NCBI GenBank assembly: GCA_024699855.1
Contig: JAMPIQ010000001.1
Span: 9,796,001 to 9,860,000, forward strand
Reading direction: 5' to 3'
Origin: Aphelenchoides besseyi
Lineage: Eukaryota; Nematoda; Chromadorea; Rhabditida; Aphelenchoididae
Length of the DNA stretch: 64,000 nt
Positions 35,898 to 64,000 of this stretch are shown here, in pieces (the first letter of the stretch is position 1; each line of letters starts with the position of its first letter). A program made the translations under genes and the position numbers. The notes beneath the pieces were generated by a model that saw only the letters and a program-made list of their open reading frames with translations, searched no databases and was not told where the DNA came from.

Positions 35898-37329
35898 ATG
35901 CGTCGACAGCTTCTGCTTCGGGCCGCTTTTCCACTTCTCATCGCTCTCTGCAGCCTTTTAACGGCTAAAGCGAACGGCGCTTATCATCAAGATGCCTTCC
36001 AACGCGTCCAAATGGACATTCCACCTCCGGGAGTTTCGTCATTGACGTTCGTTTTCGACCGCACCGGTTCCATGAACGACGATCTCGTACAAGTCGGTTG
36101 TGTTTGATTTCAGTTTTCTACTTCGATTTTCAGGTTCGACACGGAGCGAAGGGTATCTTTGAAACGGTTTTGAAGCAGAGAAAGAAACTGATTTACAACT
36201 ACGTTCTTGTGCTCTTTCATGATCCCGGTTTGTCTGATCAAAATCTTTCCAACTGTTTTGCTCAATTTCAGAAGTTGATCCGCCGTTTGTTACCACAGAT
36301 CCCGATGTTTTTCAATCCGAATTGGCGTCCGTGTCGGTTCAAGGCGGTGGTGATTGTCCGGAAATGGCGTTGTCGGGGATCAAAAAGGCACTAGAGGTTT
36401 CTTTACCAGGCTCTTACATTTACGTTTTCACTGATGCTCGAGCAAAAGATTATCATTTGGAAGAGCGAATTCTGAATTTGATTCAAGAAAAACATTCATC
36501 GGTTGTTTTCGTAATGACCGGCGATTGCGGGTTAGTTAGAAGCAACTGTTAGCTTACAAGAAGATTCCAGCAATCGAACAGCTCCCGGCTATCGAACTTT
36601 TGAGAAGATTGCCGCCGCTTCTTTCGGTCAGGTTTTTCATTTGGAGAAATCACACGTGAACACTGTTCTTGAATACGTTCGTCACGCCGTGGAACAGCGG
36701 ATGATTCATTTGCTTTACGAAGTTCGAGAGCGTGGTCAAATGGTTATTAGTCCCGTTGCTGTCGATGGACTGATGACCGAGCTAACAATTTCGCTTTCTG
36801 GACAACGAGATGACAGCGAATGGTTGAACATCACACTCATCGATCCCGAAGGTTCGATTTTTGAGTCCAACACTTTTCGATTTGAGTTTCAGGTGACACT
36901 GTGGACAAGGCAACATACGAAAATCAGGCGGGAACTATCGATTTGAAAAACGTCAAGTTAATTCGCGTAACGAATCCGCAACCCGGAACGTGGAAAGTTC
37001 GCACCACGAGCAAAAACAAACACACCCTAAGAATCTTTGGACACTCAACAATCGATTTCAAGTATGGATTTTCGACTCGTGTTGTTGATTCGATTGAGTT
37101 AGCTCATCCACGGCCGATTGCCAATCAACTCACCTACTTGATAGTGAACATGACGGGACTCAATCCACCGGGTCTACTTATGCAAGTGTCTTTGTTGGAT
37201 TATCACGGTCGAATTTTGTATCGAAATGAAAGTCGACTTCATACCCGAAATGGAAATCTCTACTACGTTGGGCCACTGATGCCGCCGAAAGGATTCTTTT
37301 TTGTTCGAGTTCAAGGAGAAGATGAAACT
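35898..37329 (+). other. Hemicentin signal peptide, VWA domain and linker (exons 1-5)
   Basis: Exons: 35898-36092, 36134-36227, 36272-36530, 36571-36851, 36893-37329. The signal peptide is [16 protein letters not shown]. The VWA starts at [20 protein letters not shown], with a MIDAS-type D-x-T-G-S motif, and continues through [20 protein letters not shown] and [19 protein letters not shown]. The linker up to 37329 (for example [19 protein letters not shown]) matches the conserved region between VWA and Ig domains of hemicentin. Confidence 0.9.
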
Positions 37330-40300: not shown

Positions 40301-43300
40301 GATAATCGAAGGTGCCGGATTGGCCAAAACGAAACACGCAATCGCCAATGAAACCGTTCGATTGGAATGTCCAGCACGGGCTTCACCACCACCCGAACGA
40401 CGTTGGAGCTACGAAGGTACACCGTTGTTTGCTCGAAGTTACGATTCTACACAAATTGCCGAATTGGATTCCGATGGAGCGCTCTTGATTCGACAAGTCC
40501 AGTTAACACATAGCGGTTTATACACGTGTAGAATATCAAATTTGGCCGGCGAAGCTTCACTTAGTTGGCAACTTTATGTCTTGGGTAAGTCGCTTACTTG
40601 GTAATATAGGCACGGCCGTAAGAAGTAAAACTCCGGTTAATCTCATGCGTTGTGATAGCTTCTTTTAACGTCCAAAGTGCGATTGTTAAAATGAACAAGA
40701 CATTTGAACAGAACTTGAGATACGGTCAACAATTTGACGTTCAATTTTACGAAGTTCGTGGCATTCGAAAAAAAATTTTTAAGAAAAATGCGGACAAGAA
40801 TGTTCGTAATATTCGAACTTCGAAGCACGACTGACGTTCTGAAGGTGACTCGTGTAAACAAAAAGAACAAGCCTAGTCTAACCGTATTTCCGATCTCTAA
40901 CAAATGCATCACCGATGTGCTGTTTCTTCTTGACGTATAAATTACAAAAAAAAACTTCGGAAATGAGTTTGGACTTTTAAGCCGCAAGTTAATTTCGTTG
41001 ATTTCAGTGCCGCCATCAATTGTCCAATCGCTTCCACCACAGGTTGACGGCATCGTCAACATTCCATTGGCAATGGCATGTCGAGCTCAAGGAACCCCGC
41101 AGCCAACAATTCAATGGGAATACGAGGGAGTTGGCTTGTCAGGTGGGTTATCCGAAAAACGTTGTACTTGTTTGTGAAATTGAATTCTTTTAAATATGAA
41201 ATTAACTTGTCAAAAAATAACAAAGTTCTGGAAACAGAGGACTGGAGAACTAATGTTTGGAATCGGGATTTATATGAATGGAAGATTCAAAGTCACGTGG
41301 CATTTTTGTACAGAAAAGACGAATAGTTGCCGATCAAGTGAATAATGTACAGGATTGCAGGAGACGATGAGCGTTTCGTTCAGACCTCGACCGGGACTTT
41401 GCGTTTGAGTCAACCACGAGCCTCAGATTCGGGCCTGTGGAAATGTTGGGCTAGAAATCAGGCTGGAGAAGATTCGGTGAGTCTTATTGTACCATATAGT
41501 AAGAAATTGCAATTGAAGAAATCGCTGATATCTATAAAATTACAATCTTATCATACAATAACGGCAACCTGGTTTGATTTTATCGAAAGAATTCTTTTAG
41601 TCACAAACGATTTTGACTGTTCGCGAACCGCCAACTATTCGATCGACACAAAAACTGCGCTATCAGTTGGTTGAGGGATTGAGTGGTCAAGTTTACTGTG
41701 AGATCAATGCTCATCCACTGCCAACAATCGAATGGTTCCAAGAAGAGCAGTTGTTGACCTCCGGAAATGGAATCGAGATCTTGAATAGTAATTTAAATCG
41801 AATTATGAAGTTTAAAAGTTGTTTTCAGATGGAACTTTGATCTTTGAAAAGACCGAACGATCTCAAGCTGGTCTCTACCTTTGCACAGCGACGAATAGCG
41901 CTGGAAAAGTTGATGTCAGTATAAACATTGAAGTTTTGACACCACCGGAGATTCGTGAATCTGAACAACCGGAACAACGATACGTAGCCGATGGATCGCC
42001 AATGATTTTGCATTGTCCTGTGGCTTCTCATCAACAACCTCAAATCTCGTGGTTTTGGAATGCGAAACCGTTGGCTTCATTTGCCGCTTCATCGACCAAT
42101 CGATTGCCACAATTCACGTTGTCTGATGATAAACGACGTCTGATGGTTCAGAAATCACAGATCGCTGATACCGGAAATTTCACTTGTGTCGCTCGAAATG
42201 CCGCTGGAGAAGCGTCGAAATCTTTTCTGGTCGAAATCAACAGTAAGACTGAGAATTCAAGTAAGAATACAGAAATCTTTCCAGTTGCTCCACGAGTTGA
42301 CAATCAACAGAAACGTCAAGTGACGGTTCTTGAGGGCGAAAGAGTTGAAATCACTTGTCCAGTGAACGGTCATCCACCACCCAACATAACGTGGCTTTCA
42401 GTGATGAGTGAAAATGGAAGGAATGCGGGACTTCAATTGGGTGGTCAAAACGGAGAAAAAGTGAGTTCGAGCCTATCGGCAGCTTACGGACGTTTAGTTG
42501 ATCATCGAAAACGCACAACTCCACCAATCTGGCTCGATAGTATGTATCGCTTCAAACCGAGCGGGAAGTGTTGATGCGACAGTGAATCTCGAAGTCTTGG
42601 CAACACCGAAGATTGTGAGGAGCAATGAAACGCCGCGCAGCGCTCTGATTGGCAAACCCGTCAGTTTGAGTTGTGATGTCGAGAACTCCGATCCAACTAC
42701 AAGAATCAAGTGGCTTTTCGTACGTTTCTCCGTTGGCTGACAAATAGTTTTGGTTTAGAACGGAAAAGAAAATCTGCCATCGAACGTTCAAATTCCACCG
42801 CACTCTCGTCGTTTGATTATTTTGGAATCGACGGAAGAACATCACGGTCAATTTTCTTGCGTTGTAACGAACAAAGTCGGCGAATCGACTTTGGATTTCC
42901 CACTTGAAATCAACGGTGAGTTTTAGTTTGTCCGTTCGTATTTCGCTTTTTAGTTCCACCCCAACTCTTGGATCCATCGCAGGCAGAAGAAGTGGCTCTG
43001 ATCGAGGGTCAACATCGAGTTTTGCATTGCGACGTTCGCGGTCATCCACCACCACGAATCCAATGGTTTCGAGACGGAGTGTTGCAGTCGGCAGCCAACG
43101 GACAAACGAGTTTGACGGTTGAGGCGGCTAGCGAGAGCGATGCTCTGACGAAGAATCGTTTTTCTTGTGTTGCAACTAACGAAGCGGGATCAGTCTCTAA
43201 AGAGTTTTTTGTTAACGTAAGTTTCTGTTGTAAAGTAAAAACCAGAGGATTTTCAGTCAATCTTTGCTCCCAAACTCTTACCAGTAGACGAACAGGAACG

Positions 43301-46300
43301 AAAAATCGATGTTTTCGAAGGCAACACTGCAACTCTCGAATGTCCGGTGGAGAATTTGCGATTGGATGACCTGTCAATTCACTGGTATCAGCGTGGACGA
43401 CCGTTGGATTTGGGACAGAACTCCAAACACTACTCGCTGTCATCGGATCGAACTCGTTTGACTATTTTGGGTGTTCATCACAACGATGAGGGAGAATACT
43501 CGTGTGTTGCTAAGAACGAAGCCGGAGAAATATCGTCGCCATTTGAACTGAAAGTTTTGGGTAAGAACAAAAAGTTACCGGAATGTTCAAATTTGAGTTC
43601 TAGTTCTTCCAATCATTGAGGGTGATGCCGAAACGTCTGTTGAGTTGGTCGAAGGCGAGGAGTTGGATTTGGAGTGCATTTTTGAAGGACAACCGCTGCC
43701 TTCAGCTTCATGGACTAAGGACGGGCTTCCAACTCCAAAGCATTCAAAAGTACGTTAATTCACGACTATGATTACGAACAGAGTTTTTAGCTTTTGTCCG
43801 AAAATCGTTTTCTTTACGTGGACAAATCGACTTCTGTTGATGCGGGAATCTACATCTGCAGAGTCGAGAATTCGGCCGGTGTAGTCACAAAAAAGTTTGA
43901 TGTTCGTGTAATCGGAAGGCCAAAGTTGTTACGGGAAGAACTCGCAAGTCAGGAAATTGGAGTAAGAAATGAGACTCAAGTTTCTATCTTTCATTTCAAT
44001 CTTTAGGTGCCTATCGGTCAAAGTGCGATCTTGGAATGTTCGGTGCGAGTTGATCCGAACACTGAAACGGAATACAATTGGTTGAAGGAGGGACGATTCT
44101 TGGCGTTGGACACGTGGGATTCCAAATACAAACTGTTGGATAAGGGAAGAAAACTGCAAATTCTGTTTGCTGCTGAAGACGATTCAAGGCTTTTCACTTG
44201 TTTGGCCAAAAATCGAGCTGGTGAAGTAAAACAGGAATTCGAACTATTAGTTAAAAGTAATTACAAACTGTCAGTTACTTACCAACCATCTTTTTAGTTC
44301 CACCATCCATTACTTCGACTGCAAATCAGTACCGAGTAATCGAAAACGCTTCGCTGGTCATTCCCTGTGAAGCTCATGGCACTCCGAAACCGAAGATTGA
44401 GTACTTACGTAACGGCAATTTGATCACTAGCGGAAGAGATGGATTAGAGATCGTGGATGGTGGGCAGCAACTTCGGATTCCATCAGCACGCGCAGATCAC
44501 GATGGTTTTTTTGTTTGTCGCGCTACAAACGAAATCGGACAAGCGGAAATCGGTTTCGGCGTCGAGGTCATCCAACGGCCAATCCTCACTGATACAACAA
44601 CTCAACAGTTGGATGTAACTCTTGGCGATTCGTTTTCTTTCAACTGTCCGCTAAAGAACATGACTTTTTCGGGCAACATCACATGGTACGTGTGTTATTA
44701 AGATACATGCAACAATCCAATATTCAGGCTCTTCAACAACGCTCCAGTTCCAACCAATCAAGAGCGATTCAAGATCATGCAAAACGGTCTTCGACTTTAC
44801 GTCCTACAAGCAACAGAAGACGATCGTGGAGAGTACTCGTGTGTTGTCAATTCAAACGCAAAAGCAGGTCAGCTTTTTCTCTGTCTAAATTGTTTACTTC
44901 ACTACTTAAAAACCTCCACACTGAATACGACAAAACCGAAAAGCTTTGCAAGAACCGGAAAAGTACATTATGTAATTGGTAACGAAATTAAAGTTAGCTG
45001 AGAATTGGCGAGAAAGTTAAACTGTAAGTAAAGCGGAAGGTGGACGAGATCGATTCGGCCGTTCAGCTCGAGAAATCGGCGATTCGGTCGACGACAAACA
45101 GCTCGTAATCATCAACTTGTAGCAACCCAAGACGCCAATAATCGTTTTTCACGGATGTTCCTTGTAAAACAAAAGTTGGGAAGTCTACGTTTACGTTATT
45201 CTTCAAGAATCGACAAACTTCTCGATGAAAACTTCGATCCAAATCACGCATCAATCTGATCATCTTCTCGCGACGGCCAACGAACTTCGGTAGTAACGTT
45301 AACGTTTTCGAAACATTTCTGGAACTCTTCGAACTACAACTGACCTCATAGCATCTTGATTCCAATGAAAGTTTCAAATTAAATCGTAGAAAAAGTTCAC
45401 ATGAGATTGAATCGCATGTACAAATTACGACTTTTTCCACCCACTAGACTGTATCTTAAAAGTTTTTGTTTTCTGTACAATCGACATAAACACTTTTTAG
45501 AAGCAAAGTGTCTCTTGAGTGAAGCTGATCGACCAAGTCCACCTGAGGGCCCAATGACCTATCCGACAACCACACAACAGTCAATCATTTGCGCATGGAA
45601 ACCGTCAGCTGACAACGGTGGAGCTGAACTGGTTACGACAAGGAAAAACTACGCTTTGAACGTTCTGGTTCCTCCTTCAATTTCGCTTCTTGAACGCGAC
45701 AAACGACGTGCGATCATCGAAAACGGAACCGTCGAATTGGAATGTCCGGCGAGTGGCCATCCACAACCGTCGACTCGTTGGTACAAAGATGGAGTTCCGT
45801 TGGAGGCCGAGACGATTAACAGCGTACTTCCCGGAGCATCGCTCGTCGGAACGGCCATTCGAATCGAAAACATTCAAGAATCCACCGGATCAGGACGATA
45901 CACTTGTGAAGCGCAGAATTCGGCGGGCATAGTCGATTTGGACATTTTGGTTCAAGTCATGAGTGAGTTCAATGCTCGTGTTGATTGTGTTAACAGCATT
46001 GTTTTAGCTCGGCCAGTGATTCAACGGAACAATCAAACGAACATTCCAATTGACGGCGAAATCGGTGGACGCGCAGAATTGGAGTGTAAAGTCAACGGAA
46101 ATCCAAGTGAGTTGTTTCGATGGTCATCTTGCTAACTGCTCTTTCAGCTCCAACAATCACTTGGCTTCAAGACGGAACTCCAATTCAGGTCGACGAACCT
46201 GCCAATCAAATTTATTTGACTCACAACCAACAGAAATTGAATTTTGTTGAACTGAAGAAGGTTTGTGCTCATTGAAATGATGTTAATTTGTTTGTAGGAA

Positions 46301-49300
46301 AATGCCGGCAAATACTCGTGTATCGCGAAAAATTCGGCCGGTGAAGATCGTCGCGATTTCGAACTTCGTTTCCTGGAAGAACCGAAGATCGACACTTCGA
46401 ACATTCCACGCGAACAAATGTTCGTTCGAAACAGAACGATGACGTTGAGTTGTCCGGCAACTGGTAAGCCCGAGCCTTCGATTGTGTGGCTTCGCGATCG
46501 ACACGTTTTGGGCGTAAACGACGCGTTGGGTCAGGAACATGATCCCCGAGTAACGTTGGTTCAAGGAGGTCGTCAGTTGAAAGTCGAAAAAGTAGAGGAC
46601 GATGATGCTGGACTTTATTCGTGCTTAGGTAAACGCTTACAATTCCCAACATTCAATTCGAAGTTACAGCAACGAACGCCGGTGGTTCAACTGATCTGCA
46701 GATTAAAGTTACGATCGTCGGTAAGAAACAAACTCACTGGACATTCGCTTTGTTTTTCAGACTTTCCCAAAATCTACGGTCCAGCAATTGAAGAAGTGAG
46801 TACTCTGTTGAATAAACGCCACGTTCTCAATTGCGATGTCGATCCACGATCCGAACCCTTTACAATCGAATGGTTGAAGTCCGGCCAGTTAGTGGGCAGT
46901 GCTAGAGATGAAACCGTCGAGTCTGAAGCTTACATTCAAGTAAACAACAAGAGAAAACCATTTTGACGGCTTGTAAGTTTAGATCACTGAACGAGGTCAA
47001 AAACTTCACATTCTGGCCGCTCAACGATCGGATGCCGCCAAATGGACGTGCAAAGTTGAGAATCCGGCTGGCGAAGCGCTGAAAGAGTTCGACATGACAA
47101 TTTTAATTCGACCGCAAATCGACGAGTCTCGATCCTCACCATCGATTGTTTCCGCATTGCATGGCGACGAAGTTGAATTGAACTGTCAAGTGGAAGCTAA
47201 TCCCACGGCAAAAGTTGGTTTCTGTGCAAGAGACCACCTCATCGATGGGTTTAGATCACGTGGACAAAAGACGGACAACCGATCGAATTTGGTCGACAGT
47301 TTGTTTTACGTTCCGAAAACCAAACGTTGCGAATTCCGACGGCAACTTCCGCCGAAAACGGACGTTTCAGTTGTTACGGTAAAACAAAGTCGATTGCATT
47401 GATGTCGATTTTCTTTTAGCCGAAAATGATGTTGGAACCACAAGTCGCAATTTTGTTGTCGAACTCGAGGGGCCTCCAATCTTTGAGACTTCGGAAGAGA
47501 TGCGAATCTTGCAGTTGGGCGAATCGTTTGCGTTGAATTGCGAACCTACGAGTGGTAATCCGCCATTCGAGTTCGCGTGGTCCATCGATGGACGCCCGCT
47601 GGACAAAGAGGAAGACCCCGCTATTCTCATCAACGGCAATCGACTGCTTCTGAACGGCGCCCTTATGAATCACAGCGCAGTTTTCGGCTGCTCAGTGCAA
47701 AATGCCGCTGGTGAAGGCTTCAAAACCTTCGATCTGCATGTGCATCAACGTCCACGTTTCATCGAGACCACACACGACGCTAACCCAACGATCATCGCCG
47801 GTCGTTCGTTGGTTTTGGATTGTGCGGTCGAAGGTGTTCCGAGACCGATTGTTACGTGGAGAAAAGTAAGTTGAAAAGTGTTTACTACTCGGTTTGTATT
47901 TACAACGGGAATCCTGAGATTACGGGGGTTAAATGTTGTGATGGCAGGGGAATCGAATGGATCGGTTTACGCAAGAAAGACCCGTCTTTTGTGACCCATC
48001 AGTGAAGCCGCTCCAATTCCGCGTTGAACGCTAATTCGTCGGCGTGTCGACAGAAAAACCAACGCGCCAATTCCACGCCTAGTCATAAGAAGATTGGAAT
48101 GCAAATGAGAAGGAAAAGTGCCGCGATAATTTTGCCAAAAGTTGTTCTCCAGAATCCGAAATCCTGGGCCGCATCGGACGTACAGATTCCATAGCGATTA
48201 CACGTCTTACCCCCGGCACAATCCAATCCAACTCGCCAGATTGGACGATTATGCGGCGTTGCGATTTGATATTTTCGGAAGGCCGATTGACAGCGACGAG
48301 AAGACGGTTTCTGAAAAGTGTCTGATGAGAATTGCGATCAAAAAGACTCACGACATTGAAGTCGTAACAGCACAACTGACAGCGATCTTCCGATGCGAAT
48401 CCCGTATCCGGATCGATGGTCGGACAATCGCAGACCATCAGATGCGGAGCTATTCGTGCGCACGGGTTCTCGCAAACATCTTCAACGCAAATTTTCTCCA
48501 ATCTGAAAAAAACATGTGAGGACAAGTGAGAATCCAAAAACTACTTCCGATCGCAAAAGGCGCCCTGTTGTTTATCGTGACAAACGGACTTCGAGCATTT
48601 GCCTTGCAAACACAAACGTTGCGGATCTCGGTCATCGCACGCCAATCCCTCCAATTCAGCTCCATTCATTCGACATCGAGCACATGATTCACGTTCCCAA
48701 CGTTCGCCATTGATTCTAAAGACACGTATGAAAAGGCAGACAATAGGCGAGATAGATACCTTAAAATACCGTGCTCATGTGCCGCTTTGCACTTGTTTTT
48801 CTCGTTCCCACAGCACAAGTAACAGTAATTGTCCTCTTCCGTGTCGCAGATGCACTCCTTCATGCCACGCAAAGAACAAACCGAAACGCACCTAAACGTT
48901 CTCTCGAGTTAATCATCTTTCCCGGAAACGCAACTTACGTGTTGTTACGACAAACGTGCGCGTTGTTTCGCGAACAAACTTCGTTCTCCTTCGTACACTC
49001 GGGAATCAACGTCTCAACGTCGCCGAAAACCGTTGGGTAATCGGAAATAAAAAGCAGGAAAACGGCAAAAATGATTCGAGATCTCCATTTGCTTTGTTGC
49101 ATTGCGACCATCCGTCGACGCGAAGATTCGCATTCCCGTCCAAAAGAACGTCCGCTTTCTCGATCGACGTGACTGATTATGAGCGTGCGTGAGCAATGAT
49201 GTTAATAGCCGCGGTCTTCTTCGCCTAAAACACAGTCGTTGACTTTAAGCCGAAAAGAAAAACGAGCAGAAACGTGGCCCGAAGATTATGCGCGCGCGTC

Positions 49301-52300
49301 TCGATTATTTTCGCGGGGACCCAAAAAGGTGTTTGAATTGGAAAAAATCCTTCCGGTCGCGAGATTTTCGCGCGTCCACGAAAAAAGCGTATGGACGATC
49401 AGGACGCAGCAGCAGAAGTTTGGTTTCCTTTACGAAATCGACTTTCCCACGCCGAAGACAATAGCGAAGGGACTCGTTTCATAAGCCGTGGACAAACACA
49501 AAAATGTCTTTGCACCACCAGGAAAACTGACCTTTTTTGGTCAACAGAAACTCGGCACGTCGCTAATTAGACGTCGACGCACGACAACTCACTTGTCATC
49601 GCTGCGGATAATTAAAAAGCCTTCAAAATTGAATTCGCAGTTGGAATCCACGAAAAGGTGCGGCAGCTGGAGGTCCCTTCGATTGACCTCAAGGAAGTGG
49701 CCGGACAGCTTCGCATTGCGCCGCGGCAGTTAAATGGAGAAGATTGACGGACGACCAAAAAACTGCCAATTTAATCACGATGATTGAAAACTTTTCGTAT
49801 GAAACGTTTTCTTGTAAGCGAACATTTTGGCGTCCAAAAAACGGCCGTCGAGGCCGAAGGTGAGCGGCGAACCGGAAAATCGGTTTTCTGTCAAAATTTC
49901 CGTCCCCGAATTCTCGTTTTACAGCGAAGTCATCGACGCATAAAAGAGATTTTCAGGGATTAATTTTCGCCGTAAACGCTTTTTGTTCGCCCCCCAAAAA
50001 CACGCAATCCAATTGGCCGCCTCGTTTTACTACTGTTCGTCGGGAATTGGCGACTCGAATTTCCCTTTTTGTTAACAAAACTTTTTCCACCTTCCAACCA
50101 AAAAAGCGATTTGAGTTTTTGGGTTCTCGTGGGAATTGCGGACTTCGTTTCGACTTTCCGTCGGTTTTCCAACTTAATGGCCGCAGATGGCAAAAAGATT
50201 AAAGACTGACAGACGATTAAAAAACAACTTCGGCTTGAAACCCAAAGTCCAAAACGTTTCCTCGGAACCCAAGAGGCATCTGCGCGACACGTGAGTTTTC
50301 TTTTTGGCAAATTGAAAACGCGAAGTAAACACGAAAAGACCTTCGGAAAGAGGTTACGATCGTTACGCGCGTCCGTTTTTTGGCATCCAAATGGCAAAGC
50401 GAAATGAATGGGATGAGCGAAAGACGGATACCTCTGGAAGGTCATTTTTCAACAACAAAAAACACACAACTTGGCCTTGAAAATCACGTGTTGCTGGATC
50501 AGTCGTCCATTCGAACAAAAACGATGTCCGCTGGAATGAACAGCCGCTCGAAGCGCCAAAGTTGATCGGCTTTTTAATTGAGCCACTTACGCGTCCGGCA
50601 CGCACATTTCAGCCAACGGATGAGTCGGGGGGAAAGCGAAACCGCCGAGAATTTTGGCTGACAAGCAAACCGGCACGAAAAAGCCAAAAAGGAGTCTTTT
50701 TTTCTCGTCGACTCGCTTTCGCCCAAAACAAAGAAACTCGAAAGCGCAGTTTGGAAACAAATGAGAAACTCGAATCCACGGAAACGTGGTCGTGAGTTCG
50801 AAACTCGAAAAAGGACTTCACATCAAACAAAAATGAAAATCGCACTTTTCAGGACGGCGAGATTCTAACGGCAACTTCCGGTCGCGAATTCATCAACAAT
50901 CACCAACAACTTTCCATCGATGAAGCTACAGAATCGGATGCTGGAATTTACTCGTGTGTTGCGGAAAGTCCGTCGGGAACCTCATCGAAAACGATCGTAG
51001 TCACGACTCTGGAAGCTCCGGTGATGCTGCAGACTCGATTTGATGTCGAAGCCAGAGAGAACGAAACGTTGAGTTTAACGTGTCCGGTGAAAGATGCCGC
51101 TAACGCACGAATCGAATGGACACAAAATCAACAGCCGATTACAACGTCTTCGGCAGTTCAAGTTCATCGATATTTAGTTTTACGGCTAATCAGTATGTTT
51201 AGATCTCGGAGAACGGCAACAAACTTCATTTTCTGAGCGTTCAAAAACATCATCGTGGAGTTTACTCGTGTTTGGCCGAAAATGAAGCCGGTGGTTCGGA
51301 AGCGATCTTCGACGTTTTGGTTCAAAGTTTGTGATCAGAAAAAGGCTACGGTTGAATTCTGAATGTTTAGTTGCTCCGGTAATTCAGCTACCGGCTGTTG
51401 GAATGAGGAACATTGCGGTGATGAAAGATCACAGCATAACTCTACAGTGTCAAGCTGATGGAGTACCAGGTGAGTTTCGGAAATTCAATTCCCACATTTG
51501 CTTTCAGCCCCGGAGATCACGTGGCTCTTCGACGGAGTTCCTTTTGCGAACTCACACGGCGATCAGCTAGTTTCTTTGGGCACAATCGAAGTTGAATTGG
51601 AACGAACTGCCGGTGGAGCTGCCGAGTTTCGAATCTCAAATGCTACTCGGCAAAATCAAGGCCGTTACACATGTTTGACGGTTAACAAAGTGGGAAAAGC
51701 TGAGGCTGATGTTTTCGTTCAAGTGATGGGTGAGTACTGACTGCTAACTAATTGGCATTTGAGTCTTTTCAGAGCCACCAAAACTGCGAACATCCTCGGA
51801 ATCAATTCGCGTCATTCAAGGCCAAGAGTTTTCTGTTCGATGCGAAGTCGAGAGTGGAATGCGTCCGTTGAGTGCCGAGTGGACGAAGGGCGATCAGACG
51901 TTGAGCAGTCTGACTGAGGAAATCGACGACAGAATCACGTATTATCTGCACAACCGCCAAGCTCAACCATCCGATGCGGGTGTGTACGTTTGTAAGATCC
52001 AAAACAGCGCTGGAAAAGCACAACTGTCAATTCGCGTTGATGTTTTGGGTGAGCAGTCAGTCAGTTTGATTAATTGTTGCGAATTTTCAGTACCACCGAA
52101 AATTGAGGCAGGCGATCGTGTACTCAAAGTGATCGAGGGGGCCGAATTGACTCTCGACTGTCAAGCCAAAGGAACTCCCGAACCAAAGGTTGTTTGGTAT
52201 TTCGGCTCGAAAGTTTTGTCCAGCGACAATCAAGGCCACTACACAATTCGAAATGCACAAGCATCACACTCTGGACGTTACACGTGAGTAAAGTCAACAG

Positions 52301-55300
52301 TTTTGTTGACTTTTTTTTAGTTGTGAAGCTCAGAACGCTGCCGATACGGTTTCTGCCGACTTTCATGTTGAGGTTTTGGTCAAACCGCGAATTCGCCCTT
52401 ATGATAAGGTTGTTCGAGTGCTGGAACGCGAGAGCACGCATTTGGAATGCAAATTCGAAGGAAATCCCGAGCCAACAGTCAAATGGATGCGATCGGGCAA
52501 AACGATCAACACCGCCGATTCCTCCGTCATTCTGTCACCACGTGGCGAATCGCTTTTGATTCCGAAAACCGAAAGATCGGATGCCGGCGACTATTCGTGT
52601 CTTCTCAGCAACTCGGCAGGAACCGCCGAAGCGCCGTTTGTTGTTTTGGTTCAAACAGCTCCGCATATCGACGAAACAATCGATCAGAATCCACGTATTA
52701 TCGAAGGTAACTCAGTGCTTTTGATTTGTCCGGTCCTTGCCGATCCTCAGCCACAAGTCAGATGGCGACACGGAGATCGAGAACTGAAGTTTACAGCCAA
52801 TGAAAACTACCGACTTGAGGGTACAAATCTGCGAATCGAAAAGACTACAGTATGTTCTTTTCTCTTATTTTTATCTTTGTGTGTTAAGGTAGATAATGGT
52901 GGTCGATATACTTGTCACGCTGAAAACGATATCGGAGGTTTGGATACTGAATACGAATTGGAAGTCATGGGTCAGTAGTCGAGATCTTAAACTCTATTGA
53001 CTCAAAGCTTGCAGCTGCACCTCGTTTTGAATCTGCTGGTCAACGAGTCTTCGAAGCCATTGAAGGTCAACCAATCAGTTTGGAGTGTCCGGCCGAAGCG
53101 TCGCCACAACCAACGATCGAGTGGTTCCGCGGCACCGTTCAACTGAACGGCGATTCGAATACTCAGATCTCACCAACAGCAAAAGTTCGTTTAATCGTTT
53201 ACTCGTGTGAAAATGAAAAGTTCAGAAACTGAAAATTTTGAACTCGACTTTGGACAACGCCGGCAAATTCACTTGTCGAGCAACGAACGTAGCGGGATCG
53301 ACGGAAATCGATTTGACCTTGAAAGTGATCGTACCGCCGCAAATCGATGAATCCAATTTGATCACCAGTCCACTGGGCGTTTTGGGTCGTTCTATTTACT
53401 TGGAGTGTCCGGTTCGTGCGATTCCTGGTGAATGATCTGCAATTGAAAACTTTTAAAACGTTTTGTTTAGAACCATCAATTCATTGGCTTAAAGATGGAA
53501 AACGCGTAGAACAAACGGACGTTAAAGACCTCGAAAACGCGAAATTCTCGTTACAACAAGCGAATCAAACGTTTGGAATCAGAAAGGTGGAACACGGAGA
53601 TCGCGGAATCTACACGTGTGTTGTGGAGAATCAGGGCGGAAAAGTTAGTCAAGATTTCAACGTCGAAGTGCTGAGTAAGTTGTTAGAATTGTGCAAACAT
53701 CGTTGTTCGTTTAGTTCCACCAGTAATGGAGAAACAAGAAGCAGAAAACGTGACCAAGCGTGAAGGCGACACTTTGATGTTATCGTGTCCAATTAAAAAT
53801 ACTTTGGGCAAAACCCAAAATCTTTCCGATCTCACGGTTACGTGGACACAAGACGGACGACCTTTGGATCCGAAGTCGGATAACGTTGAAGTACTTGAAT
53901 GCTATCAAATTTCGTATAATCAACCTTTTCAGATCTCACATGATGGAAAACATTTGAAATTGAAAAACTTGAGGGTCGCAAATGCCGGTCAATACAAGTG
54001 AGTTGGTACAGTAAGAACGGAATTGAAGTATTCAGATGTGTTGCTGCAAATCGCGCCGGTCAAACACACACAAAATTCAACGTCGACATCTTGTGTACGC
54101 ATTTAAAAACTGAGTTTTGTCGTCAGTTGGAGTTTCAGCACATAACCGCACAACGTTTGGCTTACGAACGACGACGTGACGCTTACGAGAGTCGTGATTT
54201 TAACCATGAGTTTGAAACTAACCGTCCACTAACCAGTCCCTTCGTTCGTCATTCGCAGTTGAGCGCCGAACATCGTTCAGCACTAAGATCTTCGCATCAA
54301 CGGCGTTTGCGTCAACGAACTCACGGCCGCGGTGGCTATCGAATTTCGGTCGGACGTCTGACTCCCGCAAAGAAATCGATTCCACCGGATTATTTGGCCA
54401 ATCCACGATTACCGTTGCATTCACAGTTTGCAGCCGTCGGGCGCAAAAGTTTTGTTCACAAATCTGAACATGTTTCTTCTTCGGAATCCTCTGAAGATAC
54501 TCAGGTTCACTCATTGCCAAATTTTAAAGTCAAAGCTCGTGTCACTCATTTTCTTCCCGAAGGTTTTCTTTCCAATTCCTCTGTTCATCATTCCCGTTTA
54601 CCTTCCTCTTCTTCTCCTAATCAAAACGAAAGAAAAACTGAACGTGAGAACTTCGATCAACTCCTTAGACACTATCGAAGACAAAAAAAGCGACGGCACC
54701 GGAAATTGCACGAATCAGAAAGAACCGAATTCGAGATCGTGAATCCGAAGACATTCGAAGAAAAAGAGTCTGAAGAACTCGAATGGGATGATCGTTTGCT
54801 CTACAACACTCAAACCAAATTGGCGGACATCGATCAGAATGACAAGTTCGATGAAAACAAAATTCAATGGGAAATGCGAGACGCCGAAACGCCCTATCTT
54901 AAACGACCTGCTCGCATGTCGTGGAATCAACCAGCAACAGGATATGGGTCGTTTCAAACGATCGACAACAAGTTCATAGCTTTTGACAAACCGTCTGGTC
55001 ATCGTCAGGACGTAAATCTGCAGAACTACAAAGAAGATTTTCAAGCCGAGCCACTAGCTAATCAGCAAAATGAGTTTTATAGTATTGATTTTGAAAAGCA
55101 AAATTTGATTGATGACATGAAGAAGTTTAATGAGTTCGAGCATAATGAAGATCGTCAACTTAATGTTATGGATGACTTTTTGATCAACGATAACGAATTC
55201 AAAGATCTTAAGCATGAAGACAACAACATTGAAGTGAAGCAGAAAGCGGTTTTAAATCGAAAACCTGTGATCTGCCGAGCCTCTCAAGGAACCATCCAGA

Positions 55301-58300
55301 AGCCATTGGTTATTCCGAAACCTTTGAATCTTAAGAACTCGACTTCTCAACAACTATTGACTATTGTTGTGCCAAAACTAGAGGGCAGTTTTGTTGCCCG
55401 TGTATCCAAGGGAGATTACAAATCGCCAATCATAATTGAGAAGAAGAAGACAACCAAGGCAAACGCGAAATCGTTGGAACTCGGTCAGTTTGTTGTTCGA
55501 GTTGCTGCAGGTCGTGAACAGAAAGCAATCGTGGTTGGGAAGAAGAAAAAATTCGTCAAACAACCAATCAAAGGCGTTATCATGCTCCCGATAATATACT
55601 CAAAATCTTGGACTTCAACTGCCTCTCCGATTAAAACAATAGTGTTGCGAACCACAACATCTAGTAATTTTGATTTTTCTTCTACTTCTCAACATTCAAC
55701 AAAAAGTGGAATAACACAGAAAACCATGTCATCAACATCAAACATAGGAAGCGATACTGACGATCTTGTAAGTGCCGAAAGCCCTAAAGAGACTGTGTCT
55801 TCATCATTTTTACTTTCTCAACCGGCGTCTTTGAGCATGAGAAGTGAAGAGACAACCATGAAAAAGCGTGTATTTGGTGCTGGTACAACAAACGAACAAA
55901 CATTGACATCCGCGGATCAAACCAAAGAATCACTGACCTCCAATCATCGGTTTATAAGCGCTTCAAGTCGTGCAGTTACAAAGACGGGAAGATCGAAAGC
56001 AACGTTAAAGTCAAATCCATTAGGCGTTGCGACGCTTTTGATTCAACAAGTCTCTTCTCGAACACAAACGGAGAACAGGCGGACAACTGAATTCACAGCT
56101 TTTGAAGCATTGGCTACCAGCTCACCAAAAAGAGATGATTCGATTTCATTAGATTTCAACACGATTACCTCAACCGAGTCTACGGAATCAAACAGTCCGA
56201 GCACCGAAGAAATCACGATCGCCGTCCGTCCAGTAGAAGTACAACGAGAAAAACTGAGATCAACTATTCCAACGAGTCATCTACAACATGGAGAAACACC
56301 GTTCAAAACAAAAATTATTGGAAACTCGGCGACAACACCATCAGTCAGCAGGAGCATAAACCCAAATACATCAACTGATGAGAATAACGAAACAAGCTCA
56401 CCATCGATTACTTCGACAGTAACTTCAAACGTCAGCAAACAACGACGCACGAGCGCTTTGACTAGTGAGGAGAAAACCAGCACAGAACCGAGGGAAAGCA
56501 CAGAGAATAAACAACCTACAAAGTTGAATTTGCTAACAGGATCGCCCTCAAGCAGAGACGAAGAAACGTTTAGTTATTCGGAGATCTCCACAACAAGTTC
56601 AGCTAATAACAAAATGAGCAGTTGGAAATCCACCAAACAAACGACTAAAGTTCGTAAGATTGTTTCCGAAACGTCAAATTCACACGAGCTCTCAACCAGA
56701 AGTTCTATACCTTCTTTCTCTGCTCAAATTTCAACCGATGAACAGTTGGAAAGGGAACGAACAACAGCACACGAAGAATTGAAATCAACGGACTTGTCGG
56801 AAACATCTAAACATCTTCAAACGATGTCAAAAACTGTTAAATTGTCCACTCAACCGACTACATCAGATGGAATAAGTTCAGAAACAATCGAGTACCCGAA
56901 TCGTGTGTTCTCAACTAATCGAGATTTAAAGCCGACTTCTAAACCTGAAGATTCTAAAACGGATCAAGAGTTCGATTTCTTAAGATACACTAAAAATGTT
57001 CTAAGCGAAAAACCAACTAGCAGCTACGATTCGAAGAAAACGACTCAAAATGTAGAAGTGAATTCATTTGTCTCATCATCAACGGCATTCGTAGGCAATA
57101 CTGTAAAATCAAGCAGTCACAAAGATCCAATTTCTACGACCACAGGTCAGAAGAAAAGAGAAGCGACTGAGAGATCATCAAAGAAAAGCACTACTGTTAT
57201 TAGCAAAGATCCTCACACAAAAACCAGTGAATTTCCCGTGTCCGAAGCTTCTCACTCTCATTCTTCCTCACTACCATTTACAATTCTTGGTCATAATCCA
57301 ACCAACGAATCGGTTCCAGAGACGTCGAAGATACGAAGGAAGATTTCAACATACCTTTTGACAACCAACAATAAAAAGAGCTCGATAATGCCATCGCAGT
57401 CGAACGATAAATCAACAACAGAAACCTTTCTTCCATTTGACAAATTGACATCGAAAATCACGAATTCTTTCAAATCTACTTTACAACCGTCGAGTTTCAC
57501 CAGTTTTACTCAATCAAGAAGAGCTTCTGACACGACAAAACTCATCGGCACAGCAGCAAGATCGTCAAAACAAGTTAACACACCATCGGATAAAACAACT
57601 CTTAAGTGGAAGTTAGAAACTAGTGAAATTTCACCAGAAAGTTCGATTGTTGATCCGCTTACGTCTCAAAAAACAACCGAACCTTATGATATCAAAAGTT
57701 CAACAGTTGAGGGCACACAGCCAAATGATCGTAAGGTGGTGGATTATTTGAAGACTAAGAACTCTGCTCTACCGCCTATATCAACAAGCAAATCAACTGT
57801 TCATGGAAATTCATCTCAAAAAATAACATCTGAAAACGGCGAAGAAAACAGCCAACGTACTGAAGAAACGACTGTCAATGTTCGAGGAAGAGATTTCAGT
57901 GCGTCAGAAACAACTCGACACTTCAATTCCTCGACAACGTTTACCAGACAGAGTGTTTATGATGATTTAACCAATGAGCTTGTCAGTCAATCATTTCCAT
58001 CGGCTTCTACAAACATTATACGGCAAGAGACATCAACTCGTAAGACTGTCGACTTGAAAACACAAACACCAAAATCAAATACAAGTTCTCAAACATTCGT
58101 TCCTTCGCCAAACTACTCGACAAATTCTAACGACCAAATCACAAGTTACTTCAAAACAACCTCTTCAAACACTGCAAAGATTCTTTCTTCTGTGCGATTG
58201 CCGTCCGAGGAAAGTTCAGATGTCGCAAATTCGGTTACAAAAAAGATTGAAGGTGGGACATCTACGTACCAGAAAGAAGCAAAAACATTTGCACAATCAT

Positions 58301-61300
58301 CATTCAGTATTTTACTTGAATTAACAACACCAACTGGGAAGAAGGAAACAATTCGACCTACGAGCTTAACTGATGGAATACAAAGTCGGTCAGAAGCGTT
58401 TACTCAACAATCTGTTGAAGCCACAAAAACTCACTCTCTTCCTTCCGAAGGCAAAAATCGATTAACAAGCGCACAACCCTCAGATATGAATAGTTCAAGT
58501 TCACGGGTTCTACCTGAGAAAACAACAGATCTTGTTGTCGGGCATTCAAGACCTCATTTATCAATTCATGGATCTCCAGTTGATCAGCTGACTAGTTCGC
58601 GAGTTTTAACAAACATAACCCAAGAGCCAAAAACGACTTCCTTTGGAACTTTTACTCAGTCATCAGTTAGCTTAAATCGTGTATTTTCAACAAAAGTTAC
58701 TGGCATTACTCAGGAATACAACATCCAATCTGCTCGGACCACTTCTAATAACGCAAATACAAACACATTTGAATCGATGAGCACTTTTGAAGACAGCGGT
58801 ATAACAACTGGTCTATTGGCAAGTTCCTTCACTTCAGATTCCTCAGTTATCATAAAAGGAAGTACGAAAAAAGCAGAACGTTTAAGCACAGTACAATCAT
58901 CGATCGAAGGAAGCACGAATACCGGCTATTCAGAGTCGAGTCATTCAAGTAAACGAGGGAAATCGATGTTAAACTATGAGGCATCAACGTTCATTTCAAC
59001 ACCCAAAACTCAAAGTTCTCCAAGACAAACGGTTCCTAGTTCAGATGCTGAACTATCAACATTTATAACCGAGCAAGCAAGCGCACAAACTTTAAAAGCT
59101 TCATCAATCATTGCATCAACAGACGGTCATTTTGAGGCGTCTTCAACAAACACTTTTCGCTCAGAATCCACTAAGCAAAAAGTAAACTGGTCAAGTGCAT
59201 ACAGCGAGAAAACATCAACAGTGACATCAAAATTCGTAGAAATTAACAGCTCACTTTCAACTCAGCGTCCCAACGAAAAGCCTACGAACACAAAATCGAG
59301 TATTCCAACTCAACAAGCAGAATCGACAGTGAGCTCAAAAAGTTCTATTTTAACTCTCTCGACGCAAAGTACAACTCATTCAACGGATGATTCAAGTCGA
59401 ATCGAAGGATCAAATACTGCACCTATTTCACCATCAAAGGCGAACGTAAACCACAAATCTACAATAAGAACTACGACTGAAGAAACGAGCACAAAAAATT
59501 TAATATCTTCACCCGCAGTTGTTGAATCAACAAGGACAAGTGAAGAAGTTGAAAACGCTTCGACTACGCCCTTGCCGATAGAATTCAGTTCAACTCAAAG
59601 TTCGACTACACCAATCACTCAAACAATAAACTGGACAACCTCGTACAGCCAAAAATCAACTAATGATCGAGTTAAAGATAAAAGCTCCCGAGTAACTCAA
59701 TTGCCGACTCAAGATGTTACAAGTACGAAGAATGTAAAGACGAGTCGTCAAATTCTACAGGAAGAATCAACGTCGAATTTTAAGTCAACACCACATTTTC
59801 CAATTCGAAAATCTTCAAATCCAGAAATCGAGTTGCAGACAAGTCTGAGATCAAGTACAGACAAAGCGAAAACATCTGAACGTTCTACGTCTGTAGTCGA
59901 CAAACTCTCAACGCTGGACTCAATACTATCAACTGAACCTACAAAATCGAAAATCAGCTTGAAGTCTTCGATTACATCAACGGATGCGACGAGCTCAAGC
60001 AATTCTGGTGATCAACTTACATCAAAAAAAAGTTCTGCTTCAACTCATAAACTGAAGTTGTCAACCGAAAAAGCTGTTAGTCCAAAACAACCAAAGACAA
60101 GTATCAAAAGTGTCCAAAAAATAACATCGATATCTGATAGTTCACCCTCGACACTGTCTGACGACGATAGAAAATCGACATTGAGTTCACAACCAAAAGT
60201 TCCCATTGAAACTACGAATTCAGACGGAACAATTGATTCGAGTCTTCAAACTGCAACGTCTATTTCTATAATTGATAAGACAAAACCATTTTCATTGTTG
60301 AGCATAACGGACAACACAAATCGATTGTCAGAGTATTCTTCTCAATTTTATCGCCCCGCAACAGGTAGCTCGTCAACCTTATTGACTGCAGACATTAAAC
60401 AAGCCGAGGAGTTAAGCAGCACCCGATCGCCAAAATCTTTACCGTCTGTTACGTCTACTAAACTAAAACCTAAAAGGACATCTCATTCATTTTCACCGAC
60501 TTCAACAACAAATCAACGAGTGAAAAAGTCAACAGATGATCTTAAACGGTCTTTAGTGCGTATTTCAACTCAAAGCTCATCAACAAAAAACGTCGCTTAC
60601 TATTCAAAAGAGTTGTCTACATCTCAAACAAGTCAGCAGTCAAAAACCACACGAAAAGAAGAGTTGGAAATAGCCACACCTACTTCTTTCGATCGATTAT
60701 CGAGCAAAAAAGAAGGTAAAACAACAACATTGAAAGATGATATTTCGAATACTTCAAGCCAAACAGCAACGTCTACAAGTCTTAAGCAATCAACAGATAT
60801 TGCTTGGTTGAGACGTTCGTTTGATTCGGAATCCTATCTACCTCCGAGTGATGTAAACACAAAAACGAATAATAAGAAGACAACGAAAACCGTCGAGAAA
60901 AGCAATCCGAGTTTAGAGATAGATGAAAGTTTGTTTACACACTCAAGTGTTGGGTCTTCGTCTCGAAGTTCTACATCAACTGACGATCAATATCGAATAA
61001 GTACGCCAATTAATCTTACCAACAACAGTAAAATCTCAACAAAGACCTCAAACACATTCAAAACATCTAAAGAACTCTATTCGACATCGACGAATATTGA
61101 AGGAATGTTCACTAACAAAGAGAATCGATTCACGAAAACTCAAAACCTATTCAGCAGTCAATCACCATCTGATGCACGAAGTACAATAAAAAATAAACCT
61201 CAGGTTGCTGAAGATGATCGGCTGTATTCAAAACCAATACCAATTGATGTTCGTGAAGAAATCGATGGATTGATGAAACCAAACACAACCGATCGTTTCG

Positions 61301-64000
61301 ATACGCAGTTGATAAGAAAACAAACGTCGACCAACAAAAGCGTGATTCCAGGAGAAGAAAACCACACGGATGTCATAACTTCGTTGAGAAGTTCATCAAA
61401 TTTATTTGACACCCAACCAACTCTCCAATTGACAATGTCAACAAAAATACGTGGTCAAACATCAATGGCGTTCACTCATTCAACTTCAAATCGACCATTA
61501 AATGGTGGATACGAGCTACCACGTGATTCCGGAGAAGCAATAACGCCAAATTTGTGGGTGAAACCGAAGCAAACTACGACTAAGTATGCGCATAAAACGA
61601 CTTCTATTTTAACTCCGTCAACAAGCAAGAAGATCCGGTTTAGTTTATTGACACAAAAACTAAAAACGTCAACTTTTTACTCTGCAGTTCATAAAGAAAC
61701 AAAAAGATTTGGAGAAGATATAACGCCAAACAAATGGTCAAAAAAGACATTAAGTTCTAGGCGTCCAGCTAAAACATCGGATGATCTTGTTCCAACGAGC
61801 ATCGGTTTGCGTGAAGGAAAAGACGAGTCAACCACTACCAAAGTGCATGAAGATTTACTCGGTTCATCAATTAATAGTTTTACCAATACTAGCAGTCGTT
61901 TTATTCCTACTCAGTTACTTTTAACTTCTTCTGCAACTCGAGATACAACAAGCAAACCAAATGAATTTGCATTCACGTCAACTACGCAAAAACAAAGTTC
62001 ACATCATCCAGCTAACAAAAAGAATGCAGTTACTGTCTCTCCTGTTGTTCTGCAAGAAAAAACACCAGAAATTGAAGAGCTTAGCAGTCTGACTACTGAT
62101 TCAAAGTCAACTACAAACTTTAACACAGAAGAAACATCTGAAGTCGTAAAATCAACCACCACGCATTCACGAATATTATCCACACCAAAAAAACGGCTCC
62201 CACTTCGTCCGGCAAAACCACAGGAACCGGAAGTCTTTATTCCATCTGCCACCACATCATACGAACAATCCACGAGTCAATCAAGCAAACGGGTTCATTT
62301 GTCTACTAATCACCAGACAAAATTCAGTTCGGCGTTGCTTGTCGATCACAGCACTCAAAAGTTCAGTTCTAAAACAACGCCGCAAACATCAGCAGTTGAA
62401 TTGACAAATTCAGTTACCAAGATGATAACAACTGGACAAACAAAATCGAGCAATAACGGTGAGATGATCACTGTACAATCAGAATCAACGATCTGGACCA
62501 GAATGCCTTTGTCCAAAAGTTCTACCAGTTTTGAATTCCCCTCGACTTCGATGTCAAGTTTGCATACGAGTAAAAGAAACGAAACTGAAGAGTCACAAGG
62601 ACATGTATCTCCGACTATGAAATCAGTTCTATCGACTAAGAAAGCAAGCACGTTGAATTCGTTAAACACAACAAGTCTTGTCTTGACTGATCAATCAACT
62701 ACTCGATCTTTTGAGCAAACAATCGATTCAAATTCACGAAAGAGCTCAATTATGACTCAAAAAGTTTTTGAAACACTAACAGTCAAAAGCACAACTATTG
62801 AATTTGAAAATACATTAAGTGAAGAGACGGTTTCCGATCAGACGAGTTCTAATTTAAACAGCAAGAAGTTCGAATCGACAACAGCCAATCAGATTCTTTC
62901 CGAATCTACGTCGCCAATCTCTTCACGTCCGTTTACTAGCCATCGATCATTCCATCTGCCGAACGTAACCAATAGAGAGATTGCATCAACCACTTTAGTG
63001 AAGACAGGTTCTACAGCAAACAAGGAAACGAGCACATCAAGTTCTTTTATGAGCACAACACCTTCAGGAAGTTTGCAGCCAACATTGTCTTATTCGCCTT
63101 CAAACGTCGTTGCTTCTTCTCAAGAATATCAAACGCCTGAAAATGAAGGTGCAAAAATTGAAAGCAGTTATTGGTCAAAAACAAAAACAGTTAGCGATGC
63201 ATCAACAGTCGACACAAAAACATCTCAATTGTTCGATTATTCTACAAATTCCATTAAATCAACGAGTAAACTATCTGATTCAACCTCTCACTTATTAAAA
63301 GAGGAAATTATGAGAGTGACAGGGAATCAATGGCTGAAACCAATAACAACAGCAACCATACTCAATGTGAAACCAACGCATTCAGAAGCAACAACTTCAT
63401 TGTCATCGCCTCTTGTGTTTACATTACACGAAACCTCTACAAATACGGCATTTCCAAGTGAAAAGACGGCGAGTGCAAATGGCTTCACTGATGACAATAT
63501 TAGCGACATAACACAGGACAGTAGCAAATCTACAACTGAAGAATTTCAGTCGCCAAGAACCGTGAAGGTCTATGTTACTCCAAAGTATGAACGCCAAACA
63601 GCTATCGATTTTACAGATCGATTGTTATCAACGACAACCAATAGCATCCAAAAGAATCTATCGACTAGTCAACAATCTTCTTACTCTTCAAAGTTCAGTG
63701 TTAATCAGATGACAACAAGAAGCGAACTCCCAAATCGAGCTGCTAAGAACTTGTTGAGTTCTGAAGAAGTTATTCTCGATGTAAAAAGCATAACAACAAA
63801 AGATTATTTAAATGGAAATTCGAATGTCGAAAAATCGAGGACACGGTCAAAAGATCAGTTTACTTCAACCGCAGATGCCACAATCACGGGTGAAATGACG
63901 AATTGGAAAATAGAACTCACAAAATTAGTTCCGACTGTTTCATCAACCAAACAAACGTCGAACAACAACATAACTGTTACGACTACAAATTGGATGTCGA
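35898..64000 (+). CDS. him-4: Hemicentin-like giant extracellular matrix protein with mucin-like C-terminal tail (3' end outside window)
   Basis: Fifty-five exons keep one frame from ATG 35898 to base 64000: 54 exons (11531 nt) up to 53997, then a single exon from 54036 of at least 9965 nt, so at least 7,100 residues. Order: signal peptide, VWA, hemicentin-specific linker, 36 Ig domains with one half FN3 domain after Ig20, then an acidic/basic polar region and a very long Ser/Thr-rich tail. Hemicentins are secreted matrix proteins that organise hemidesmosomes, germline syncytium and tissue linkage. Known members end in EGF repeats and a fibulin-type module; none is visible here. Exon coordinates are given in the sub-entries. 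A separate gene joined by chance readthrough is unlikely, because the last Ig exon itself continues into the tail without a splice site. Confidence 0.88.
37370..44867 (+). other. Hemicentin Ig domains 1-20 (exons 6-32)
   Basis: Exons: 37370-37566, 37605-37872, 37911-38196, 38238-38345, 38386-38478, 38520-38605, 38646-38736, 38777-39055, 39092-39243, 39284-39404, 39671-39831, 39874-39987, 40032-40584, 41008-41142, 41361-41476, 41601-41787, 41829-42242, 42285-42460, 42498-42719, 42759-42915, 42954-43216, 43257-43560, 43604-43749, 43791-43961, 44007-44256, 44298-44685, 44728-44867. Each Ig repeat shows the I-set pattern: PP-x-I linker, C in strand B, W in strand C, and D-x-G-x-Y-x-C-x-A-x-N-x-x-G. 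Introns fall at the same two or three positions in most repeats, a sign of tandem domain duplication. Confidence 0.9.
45063..45263 (-). pseudogene. Antisense protein-like fragment inside a hemicentin intron
   Basis: A 66-codon minus-strand frame from an in-frame ATG, ending in TGA. The translation looks like the end of a globular protein ([36 protein letters not shown]). The frame remains open upstream to 45440, without a convincing start or splice sites. It is a possible gene fragment carried into the 633-bp intron between Ig20 and the next exon. The family was not recognised. Confidence 0.25.
48083..49102 (-). CDS. Nested gene: signal peptide, two ADAM17-type Cys-rich modules, C-terminal membrane span, no protease
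   Basis: Exons: 49102-48939, 48891-48760, 48715-48545, 48502-48352, 48310-48083 (281 aa), all GT/AG and in frame, so this is a complete gene inside a hemicentin intron on the opposite strand. It begins with a signal peptide ([18 protein letters not shown]). Module 1 at about residues 51-89 ([16 protein letters not shown], then CYLCC) and module 2 at about 161-213 ([17 protein letters not shown], then CQLCC) share the C-x3-C-...-C-x-C-...-C-x2-C-C pattern of the ADAM17 (TACE) membrane-proximal region. Module 2 is followed by [16 protein letters not shown], as in ADAM17, then a terminal membrane span ([18 protein letters not shown]) with almost no cytoplasmic tail. No metalloprotease or prodomain is present. 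The family assignment is inferred from cysteine spacing. Confidence 0.72.
49200..50850. repeat. A/T-run-rich intronic region with roughly 10-bp periodicity (PATC-like)
   Basis: The rest of the large hemicentin intron holds no exon that I can support. Runs of 4-7 A or T recur about every helical turn in a CG-containing background (for example 49970-50150 and 50180-50330), much like the patch at 33.1-34.0 kb. Judged by eye. Confidence 0.45.
54036..64000 (+). other. Giant single exon: polar linker and Ser/Thr-rich mucin-like tail
   Basis: The exon starts with the end of Ig36 ([20 protein letters not shown]) and stays open to the window edge; codon phase was checked at several points up to 63901. 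First come about 420 residues of Arg/His/Glu-rich polar sequence, with basic runs such as [10 protein letters not shown] and acidic runs. A short segment with beta-strand-like patterns follows ([47 protein letters not shown]). From about 55620 it becomes a low-complexity Ser/Thr/Lys/Glu tail with sparse single Trp residues. Cysteine is almost absent from the stretches I translated. The DNA is A-rich compared with the Ig exons. Dense O-glycosylation is expected of such sequence. Confidence 0.85.

Follow-up and report, generated by a model that had tools for sequence, protein, structure and literature searches.

The closest described systems are the hemicentins, whose signature combines a VWA domain, a hemicentin-specific region near the N-terminus and a long Ig chain (PMC3707829). 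The C. elegans gene him-4 has 62 exons and encodes products of 5175/5198 aa (PMC3707829), and its product HIM-4 has been identified as the chondroitin proteoglycan CPG-14 (PMC11632948); hence, bulky glycans are not foreign to a nematode hemicentin. A count of the words isoform and splice in the available text of one paper on HIM-4 (PMC6467243) gave 0. We found no literature on alternative splicing or truncated forms of hemicentin in nematodes within a partial coverage of the field. Likewise, judged by titles and the beginnings of abstracts, none of the matches listed in that partial coverage concerns a hemicentin form with a Ser/Thr-rich stretch such as the one described here.

The Ig-rich protein UNC-52 occurs in some forms that are truncated in or before the Ig array, and we know of no giant Ser/Thr-rich exon in unc-52. 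Several isoforms of this perlecan, a matrix proteoglycan of C. elegans, are produced through MEC-8-regulated splicing (PMC4290612). Regulated isoforms of a matrix proteoglycan have a nematode precedent in UNC-52.

Aphelenchoides besseyi is the rice white-tip nematode. The window, meaning the whole 64,000-nt stretch of DNA that was analysed (C1:9796001-9860000), comes from an assembly of 47.4 Mb in 31 contigs, and chromosome sequence past position 64000 was also read. The window holds the first part of a gene that resembles HIM-4 and the vertebrate HMCN1/2 in its VWA domain, galactose-binding-like domain, Ig chain, EGF modules and fibulin-like end. Unlike HIM-4 and HMCN1/2 as they are described in the available text of PMC3707829, it also holds, after Ig 36 and before Ig 37, an in-frame open exon of 14 kb that is Ser/Thr-rich. 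From its sequence, we consider this stretch to be probably a giant exon that the A. besseyi hemicentin gene uses alternatively. The features discussed below are as follows, with a slash marking splice borders.

35898..54094, plus strand: first part of the hemicentin gene, with its start, VWA domain, hemicentin-specific region and Ig 1-36 in short exons (mapping of P0001, the deposited protein)
47866..50852, plus strand: hemicentin intron of 2,987 nt, with an antisense Cys-rich open-frame region (intron mapping)
54036..54094, plus strand: exon ending Ig 36 in the form that skips the stretch, with the phase-1 donor TGT/GTACGC at 54095 (mapping of P0001)
54095..64000, plus strand, continuing to the TAG at 68176-68178: giant in-frame Ser/Thr-rich open frame (frame scan, period-3 power)
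54094..54873, plus strand: 260 codons of the giant frame that precede the first ATG in frame (54874), left open by 0 of 2000 dinucleotide shuffles
54281..54283, plus strand: candidate acceptor ATCGTTCAG/CA, exon start 54281, phase-compatible with donor 54095 (19 of 78 real acceptors score lower)
54434..54436, plus strand: candidate acceptor AGTTTGCAG/CC, exon start 54434, phase-compatible with donor 54095 (11 of 78 score lower)
55250..55600, plus strand: three segments with a loose similarity to one another, close to the beginning of the stretch (noticed by eye in its translation)

The identity of the gene is demonstrated by its 145-residue hemicentin-specific region (exon 36895-37329), for which a search gave three matches among 20 candidates, with identities of 100% to P0001 (the deposited A. 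besseyi hemicentin, 5,548 aa), 90% to P0002 (A. fujianensis) and 58% to a Pristionchus protein. P0001 maps onto the gene in 81 exact blocks, and its precomputed Pfam list includes PF25106 and PF23560, which were scanned as VWA_4 and GBD_Hemicentin in P0002. A profile built from P0001's own Ig domains gave 47 Ig matches in this protein, 36 before the junction described below and 11 after it. Past the window, at 68.5-74.9 kb, the gene resumes with these 11 Ig domains, EGF modules and a fibulin-like end. EGF_CA lies above the cut-off in all three exon translations given for the downstream sequence L003. The exon at 74379-74879 runs about 125 residues past its EGF module with no Pfam match and is followed by a stop after 74879; the C-terminus is called fibulin-like by position and by eye. 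In other hemicentins a nidogen G2F domain precedes the EGF modules. The place for such a domain in A. besseyi is 72.8-73.5 kb, and in A. fujianensis P0002 the 23 Pfam families reported do not include G2F.

These data alter several points of an earlier note on this DNA. It had called the exon ending at the stretch the last Ig exon, which the 11 further Ig domains contradict, as the gene goes on beyond the stretch. It had also supposed that a tail replaces the EGF/fibulin end; those modules lie past 64000 and P0001 reaches them, so that the loss is wrong for the gene, yet may be right for one isoform. Among the observations named beforehand as refuting its reading were a splice near 54.1 kb that skips the stretch and, in most related species, EGF modules of the ordinary kind after it. 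Both a skipping splice and EGF modules are seen in the deposited A. besseyi model, and EGF modules (EGF_CA) are seen in the A. fujianensis protein as well.

Mapping of P0001 gave 79 introns with GT-AG borders and a median length of 41 nt, while one further gap, after 68609, gave none. The deposited model excises 54095-68499 as a single intron of 14,405 nt, joining Ig 36 to Ig 37; the second-longest mapped intron (2,987 nt) is the only other one above 1 kb. P0001 residues 3808-3826 correspond to 54037-54093 and residue 3828 starts at 68502, with the junction reading ...VDIL-S-IPKIEEE.... The same direct Ig-Ig junction is found, at the protein level, in A. fujianensis P0002 and in P0003 of Pristionchus entomophagus. 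Against a reference of 78 hemicentin introns, with the giant one left out, both borders of the long intron are weak: only 3 of 78 real donors score lower than 54095 and 8 of 78 real acceptors score lower than 68500. Such weakness is expected of an optional splice. Separately, P0002 lacks 554 residues after P0001 position 1525 together with five pieces of 35-108 residues, which are probably gaps in its gene model.

Several other features lie near the hemicentin gene. Upstream, a separate gene at 8573-8986 on the minus strand carries a VWA_4 domain (Pfam, E 2.8e-06, 27.4 bits against a cut-off of 27). Within the 2,987-nt intron, 48079-49111 on the minus strand is an open-frame region rich in Cys, which has short introns and a start that looks by eye like a signal peptide; it is apparently a nested gene, and 48079-48540 has no Pfam match. 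Also on the minus strand, 17408-18079 encodes a Cys-rich protein, ShKT-like by eye, with a long PEDPNKK/PEDPSKQ repeat tail that keeps further frames open on both strands, and the open frames at 2-538 and 548-919 share a near-identical start, KWLFILAYAQNSVDYVKDQTTGIYNSIATT..., which by eye is a local duplication. Just downstream of hemicentin and convergent with it, two minus-strand open frames (L003:2548-2853 and L003:3499-3804) have the same translation, ubiquitin-like by eye.

The giant frame is open from 53944 through the window end at 64000 to the TAG at 68176-68178 (L002:5176-5178) in the adjoining chromosome sequence. Counted from its first full codon at 54037, it comprises 4,713 stop-free codons, versus a longest stop-free run of 236 codons in 100 dinucleotide shuffles, and a chance open frame was rejected on this comparison. 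Each of the other five frames contains 183-353 stops across the same region. The claim of a giant Ser/Thr-rich open exon directly in frame after a hemicentin Ig exon is thus borne out. The earlier length of at least 9.96 kb was correct in that the frame is open to the window end, but the open exon is really 14.1 kb, with its frame running on to the TAG. On the other hand, the statement that no splice site follows the Ig exon does not hold, as the phase-1 donor 54095 at the end of the Ig domain is used in the deposited model. The exon start, 54036 in our own gene model, agrees with the deposited-protein mapping (codon start 54037). That the giant frame shares its reading frame with the upstream Ig exon would happen by coincidence one time in three.

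Coding character was examined in several ways. Period-3 power in giant-frame blocks of at least 339 nt, up to 67981, was matched by 0-1 of 1000 shuffles; shorter blocks were reached more often (22/1000 for 54095-54280 and 50/1000 for 54281-54433). A synonymous-codon score separated nothing in the hemicentin gene. Our gene-model program, which was trained on Ig exons and codons, split the stretch into three exons (54036-54243, 54736-55483 and 66860-67981). This split is read as the program's dislike of Ser/Thr codons, and the gene model is not counted as independent support.

Secreted mucins are built on long, Ser/Thr-rich, Cys-poor stretches. The A. besseyi stretch is like them in being long (4,694 residues added after the Ig domain), Ser/Thr-rich (31.1%, from 16.9% Ser and 14.2% Thr) and Cys-poor (three cysteines in 4,694 residues, all within the first 500). 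Unlike gel-forming mucins, it has no proline-rich tandem repeats (4.5% Pro), and Pfam detected no VWD, C8, TIL or cystine-knot domains in its window part or continuation. Tandem Repeats Finder reported no arrays, whether in 50-64 kb or further on in L002:1-5500, and the commonest 7-residue word occurs twice. The description as a mucin-like tail stands for the Ser+Thr content and the three cysteines, but not for proline or tandem repeats. The proposed gel-forming hybrid was rejected for the scarcity of cysteines and the lack of tandem arrays and Pfam domains, and gel cross-linking of the stretch with three cysteines is unlikely.

No known family accounts for the stretch in the searches made. 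There was no Pfam family in its window part or in the continuation up to the stop (including 54139-55656), no NCBIfam match, and no PDB sequence matching the last 725 residues. Within the genome, the two pieces searched, the first 506 residues from 54139 and the last 725, match only themselves. Three related acidic motifs (EEIHVVRKHNG, DEIQVIRKHNV and DEAQMVRRHNG) lie near the end at 67471-67830 (L002:4471-4830), and ITPN-W is present twice, at about 61540 and 61720 (61540-61735); the motifs and the ITPN-W pair may be relics of degenerate repeats. The sequence RPKR at 68068-68079, a furin-like site, is the only R-X-K/R-R in the stretch and was dropped from consideration, as our residue-frequency estimate expects about one by chance.

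Chondroitin attachment in C. elegans uses the motif E/D-G/A-S-G (PMC8418075). The stretch has 13 SG sites, three of which are closely flanked by acidic residues on both sides, and 0 of the 13 fit this motif; chondroitin attachment by the C. elegans motif was therefore rejected. The only match in the canonical part of hemicentin, at P0001 residue 4055, is inside an Ig domain. A looser acidic SG motif occurs in the stretch at seven sites versus 4.0 expected (P 0.098), and a strict one at four match positions in three sites versus 0.7 expected (P 0.016); neither count was used as evidence.

Deposited proteins were searched with two parts of the stretch. The first 540 residues from 54037, compared with proteins of 1,826-5,811 aa (4557 candidates), found no carrier of the stretch, and 54139-63999, compared with proteins of 3,245-10,325 aa, found none among the 1005 candidates sharing most words. 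A. besseyi proteins are present in the database searched. It should be noted that these size ranges were set by a rule of the tool and that deposited fragments beyond them would escape.

Translation most likely enters the stretch from the hemicentin sequence upstream. This is suggested by the 260 ATG-less codons, which are open beyond chance, and by the lack of a signal-peptide-like start among the ATGs listed at 54000-56000 (by eye, 30 residues each). For instance, the nearest ATG, at 54470 in a different frame, is followed by a broken hydrophobic run. Parts of the ATG-less region remain open in shuffles at varying rates: 134/2000 for 54094-54279, 43/2000 for 54094-54432, 11/2000 for 54433-54873, 1/2000 for 54280-54873 and 0/2000 for 54139-54873. 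The entry route could be reading past donor 54095 or splicing to acceptor 54281 or 54434. The acceptor scoring highest near the start of the stretch, 54139 (39 of 78 real acceptors lower), is out of phase with donor 54095, and a splice between them would shift the frame and reach a TGA at about 54180 (by eye).

The 5' end of the stretch is not uniformly supported. The period-3 power of 54095-54433 as a whole was reached by 0 of 1000 mononucleotide shuffles; over 54095-54434, however, a frame-specific score with 54434-55600 as its training sequence is negative (-3.2 at 54434). Ig-exon pieces of 58 and 202 nt, taken for comparison, also gave non-significant period-3 power (315/1000 and 142/1000), indicating that this test has little power on short pieces.

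The evidence on the other end of the exon conflicts, as composition points to the exon's own stop at 68176 and periodicity to a splice at 67982. Donor 67982 (GCG/GTAAGA) scores above 32 of the 78 real donors, is in phase with acceptor 68500 and was picked by the gene-model program; it lies 13,887 nt from donor 54095, a multiple of 3, and both are phase 1. Beyond it, 67982-68175 has a period-3 power of 0.19, below all 685 windows of equal length in the exon, and a power as low as this is found in 5 of 126 noncoding windows. The exon-versus-intron composition score, in contrast, climbs until about 68130-68160 and drops past the stop, where T rises from 25.8% to 40.7%. The 194-nt piece before the stop scores 3.5, whereas the 101 intron windows, which come from the introns used in training the score, do not exceed 3.7. 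Exon-like values, with a median of 9.1, are also given by this score to another hemicentin intron (49.2-50.8 kb), and hence it is not decisive. The segment 67981-68175 is open in 326 of 2000 shuffles. An AATAAA at 68446, 54 nt upstream of acceptor 68500, offers a candidate polyadenylation signal; AATAAA appears in 133 of 1000 shuffles of the post-stop stretch and seven times inside the giant frame. We slightly prefer an exon ending at its own stop over the internal splice.

Three other explanations of the stretch were weighed. In a variant of the explanation preferred here, the stretch would be an internal cassette, with the splice from donor 67982 to acceptor 68500 always used and no shortened isoform. 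The in-phase donor, with 32 of 78 real donors lower, the end of coding periodicity at that point and the choice made by the gene-model program are all in keeping with this version. We nevertheless regard it as rather doubtful, since 67982-68175 is open with an exon-like composition that flips at the stop codon, and since at least ten other phase-1 GT sites in the giant frame score equal or better. Indeed, 11 phase-1 GT sites, with 67982 included, reach its score, making this donor by itself unremarkable. An independent Ser/Thr-rich gene nested on the same strand in the hemicentin intron of 14.4 kb and served by a promoter or spliced-leader acceptor of its own (e.g., 54139) appears improbable. 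Such a gene would be compatible with a deposited A. besseyi hemicentin model that skips the stretch, with junctions in the proteins of two other species that show no trace of it, with the strongest nearby acceptor (54139) being out of phase with donor 54095, and with the antisense gene-like region held by another hemicentin intron. It would, however, have to accommodate the lack of any in-frame ATG before 54874, preceded by 260 codons open beyond chance, and of a signal-peptide-like ATG start among those listed at 54000-56000 (by eye). It would also find little upstream room for a first exon; only seven other introns exceed 150 nt, the largest being 2,987 nt.

It is very improbable that no protein is produced at all, the stretch being an intron open by accident, a decaying former exon or an assembly artefact. 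No deposited protein matched within the size ranges searched, and the two tested pieces have no relatives elsewhere in the genome, both of which such an origin would allow. Yet a run of 4,713 stop-free codons with a strong period-3 signal would hardly persist across 13.9 kb unless selection maintained it. As for an artefact, errors in the sequencing would be apt to interrupt the frame, and the stretch offers no tandem repeat for misassembly.

The best reading of the sequence is thus an alternative isoform with a brush, encoded by a giant optional exon. Use of the weak 5' splice site at 54095 would remove all of the 14.4 kb and yield the ordinary hemicentin of 5,548 aa. If the site is passed over, or if acceptor 54281 or 54434 is used, about 4,600-4,700 Ser/Thr-rich, Cys-poor residues would be added in frame. 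If the exon ends at its own stop (TAG 68176, polyadenylation signal 68446), the product would be a secreted protein of 8,520 aa made of VWA, 36 Ig domains and the brush, without the EGF/fibulin end. If instead donor 67982 joins Ig 37 in phase, a hemicentin of 10,177 aa with an internal brush would be made. We infer that the giant exon is expressed and that the stretch is probably disordered and O-glycosylated. As in other hemicentins, secretion and targeting would be the task of the VWA and Ig part, and the extended O-glycosylated stretch would act as a bulky, hydrated spacer on the VWA-targeted Ig cable.

On balance, we lean towards a choice at a single weak 5' splice site by which one hemicentin gene would give two matrix proteins of different physical kind. 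These would be, by our somewhat favoured estimate, the usual Ig cable and a version of 8,500-10,200 residues that either keeps or lacks the fibulin end and owes a brush of some 4,600 Ser/Thr-rich residues to the exon of about 14 kb. Among the A. besseyi proteins on deposit, within the sizes covered by the searches, the brush isoform is apparently missing, and the case is a warning that gene prediction may throw out 14 kb of coding exon as intron sequence. Should it be expressed, the isoform would differ from the hemicentin forms that we found described, and its coding exon would be exceptionally large. It would also allow a test, in a small animal, of how an attached glycosylated brush changes a matrix cable, and of whether splice choice tunes tissue linkage.
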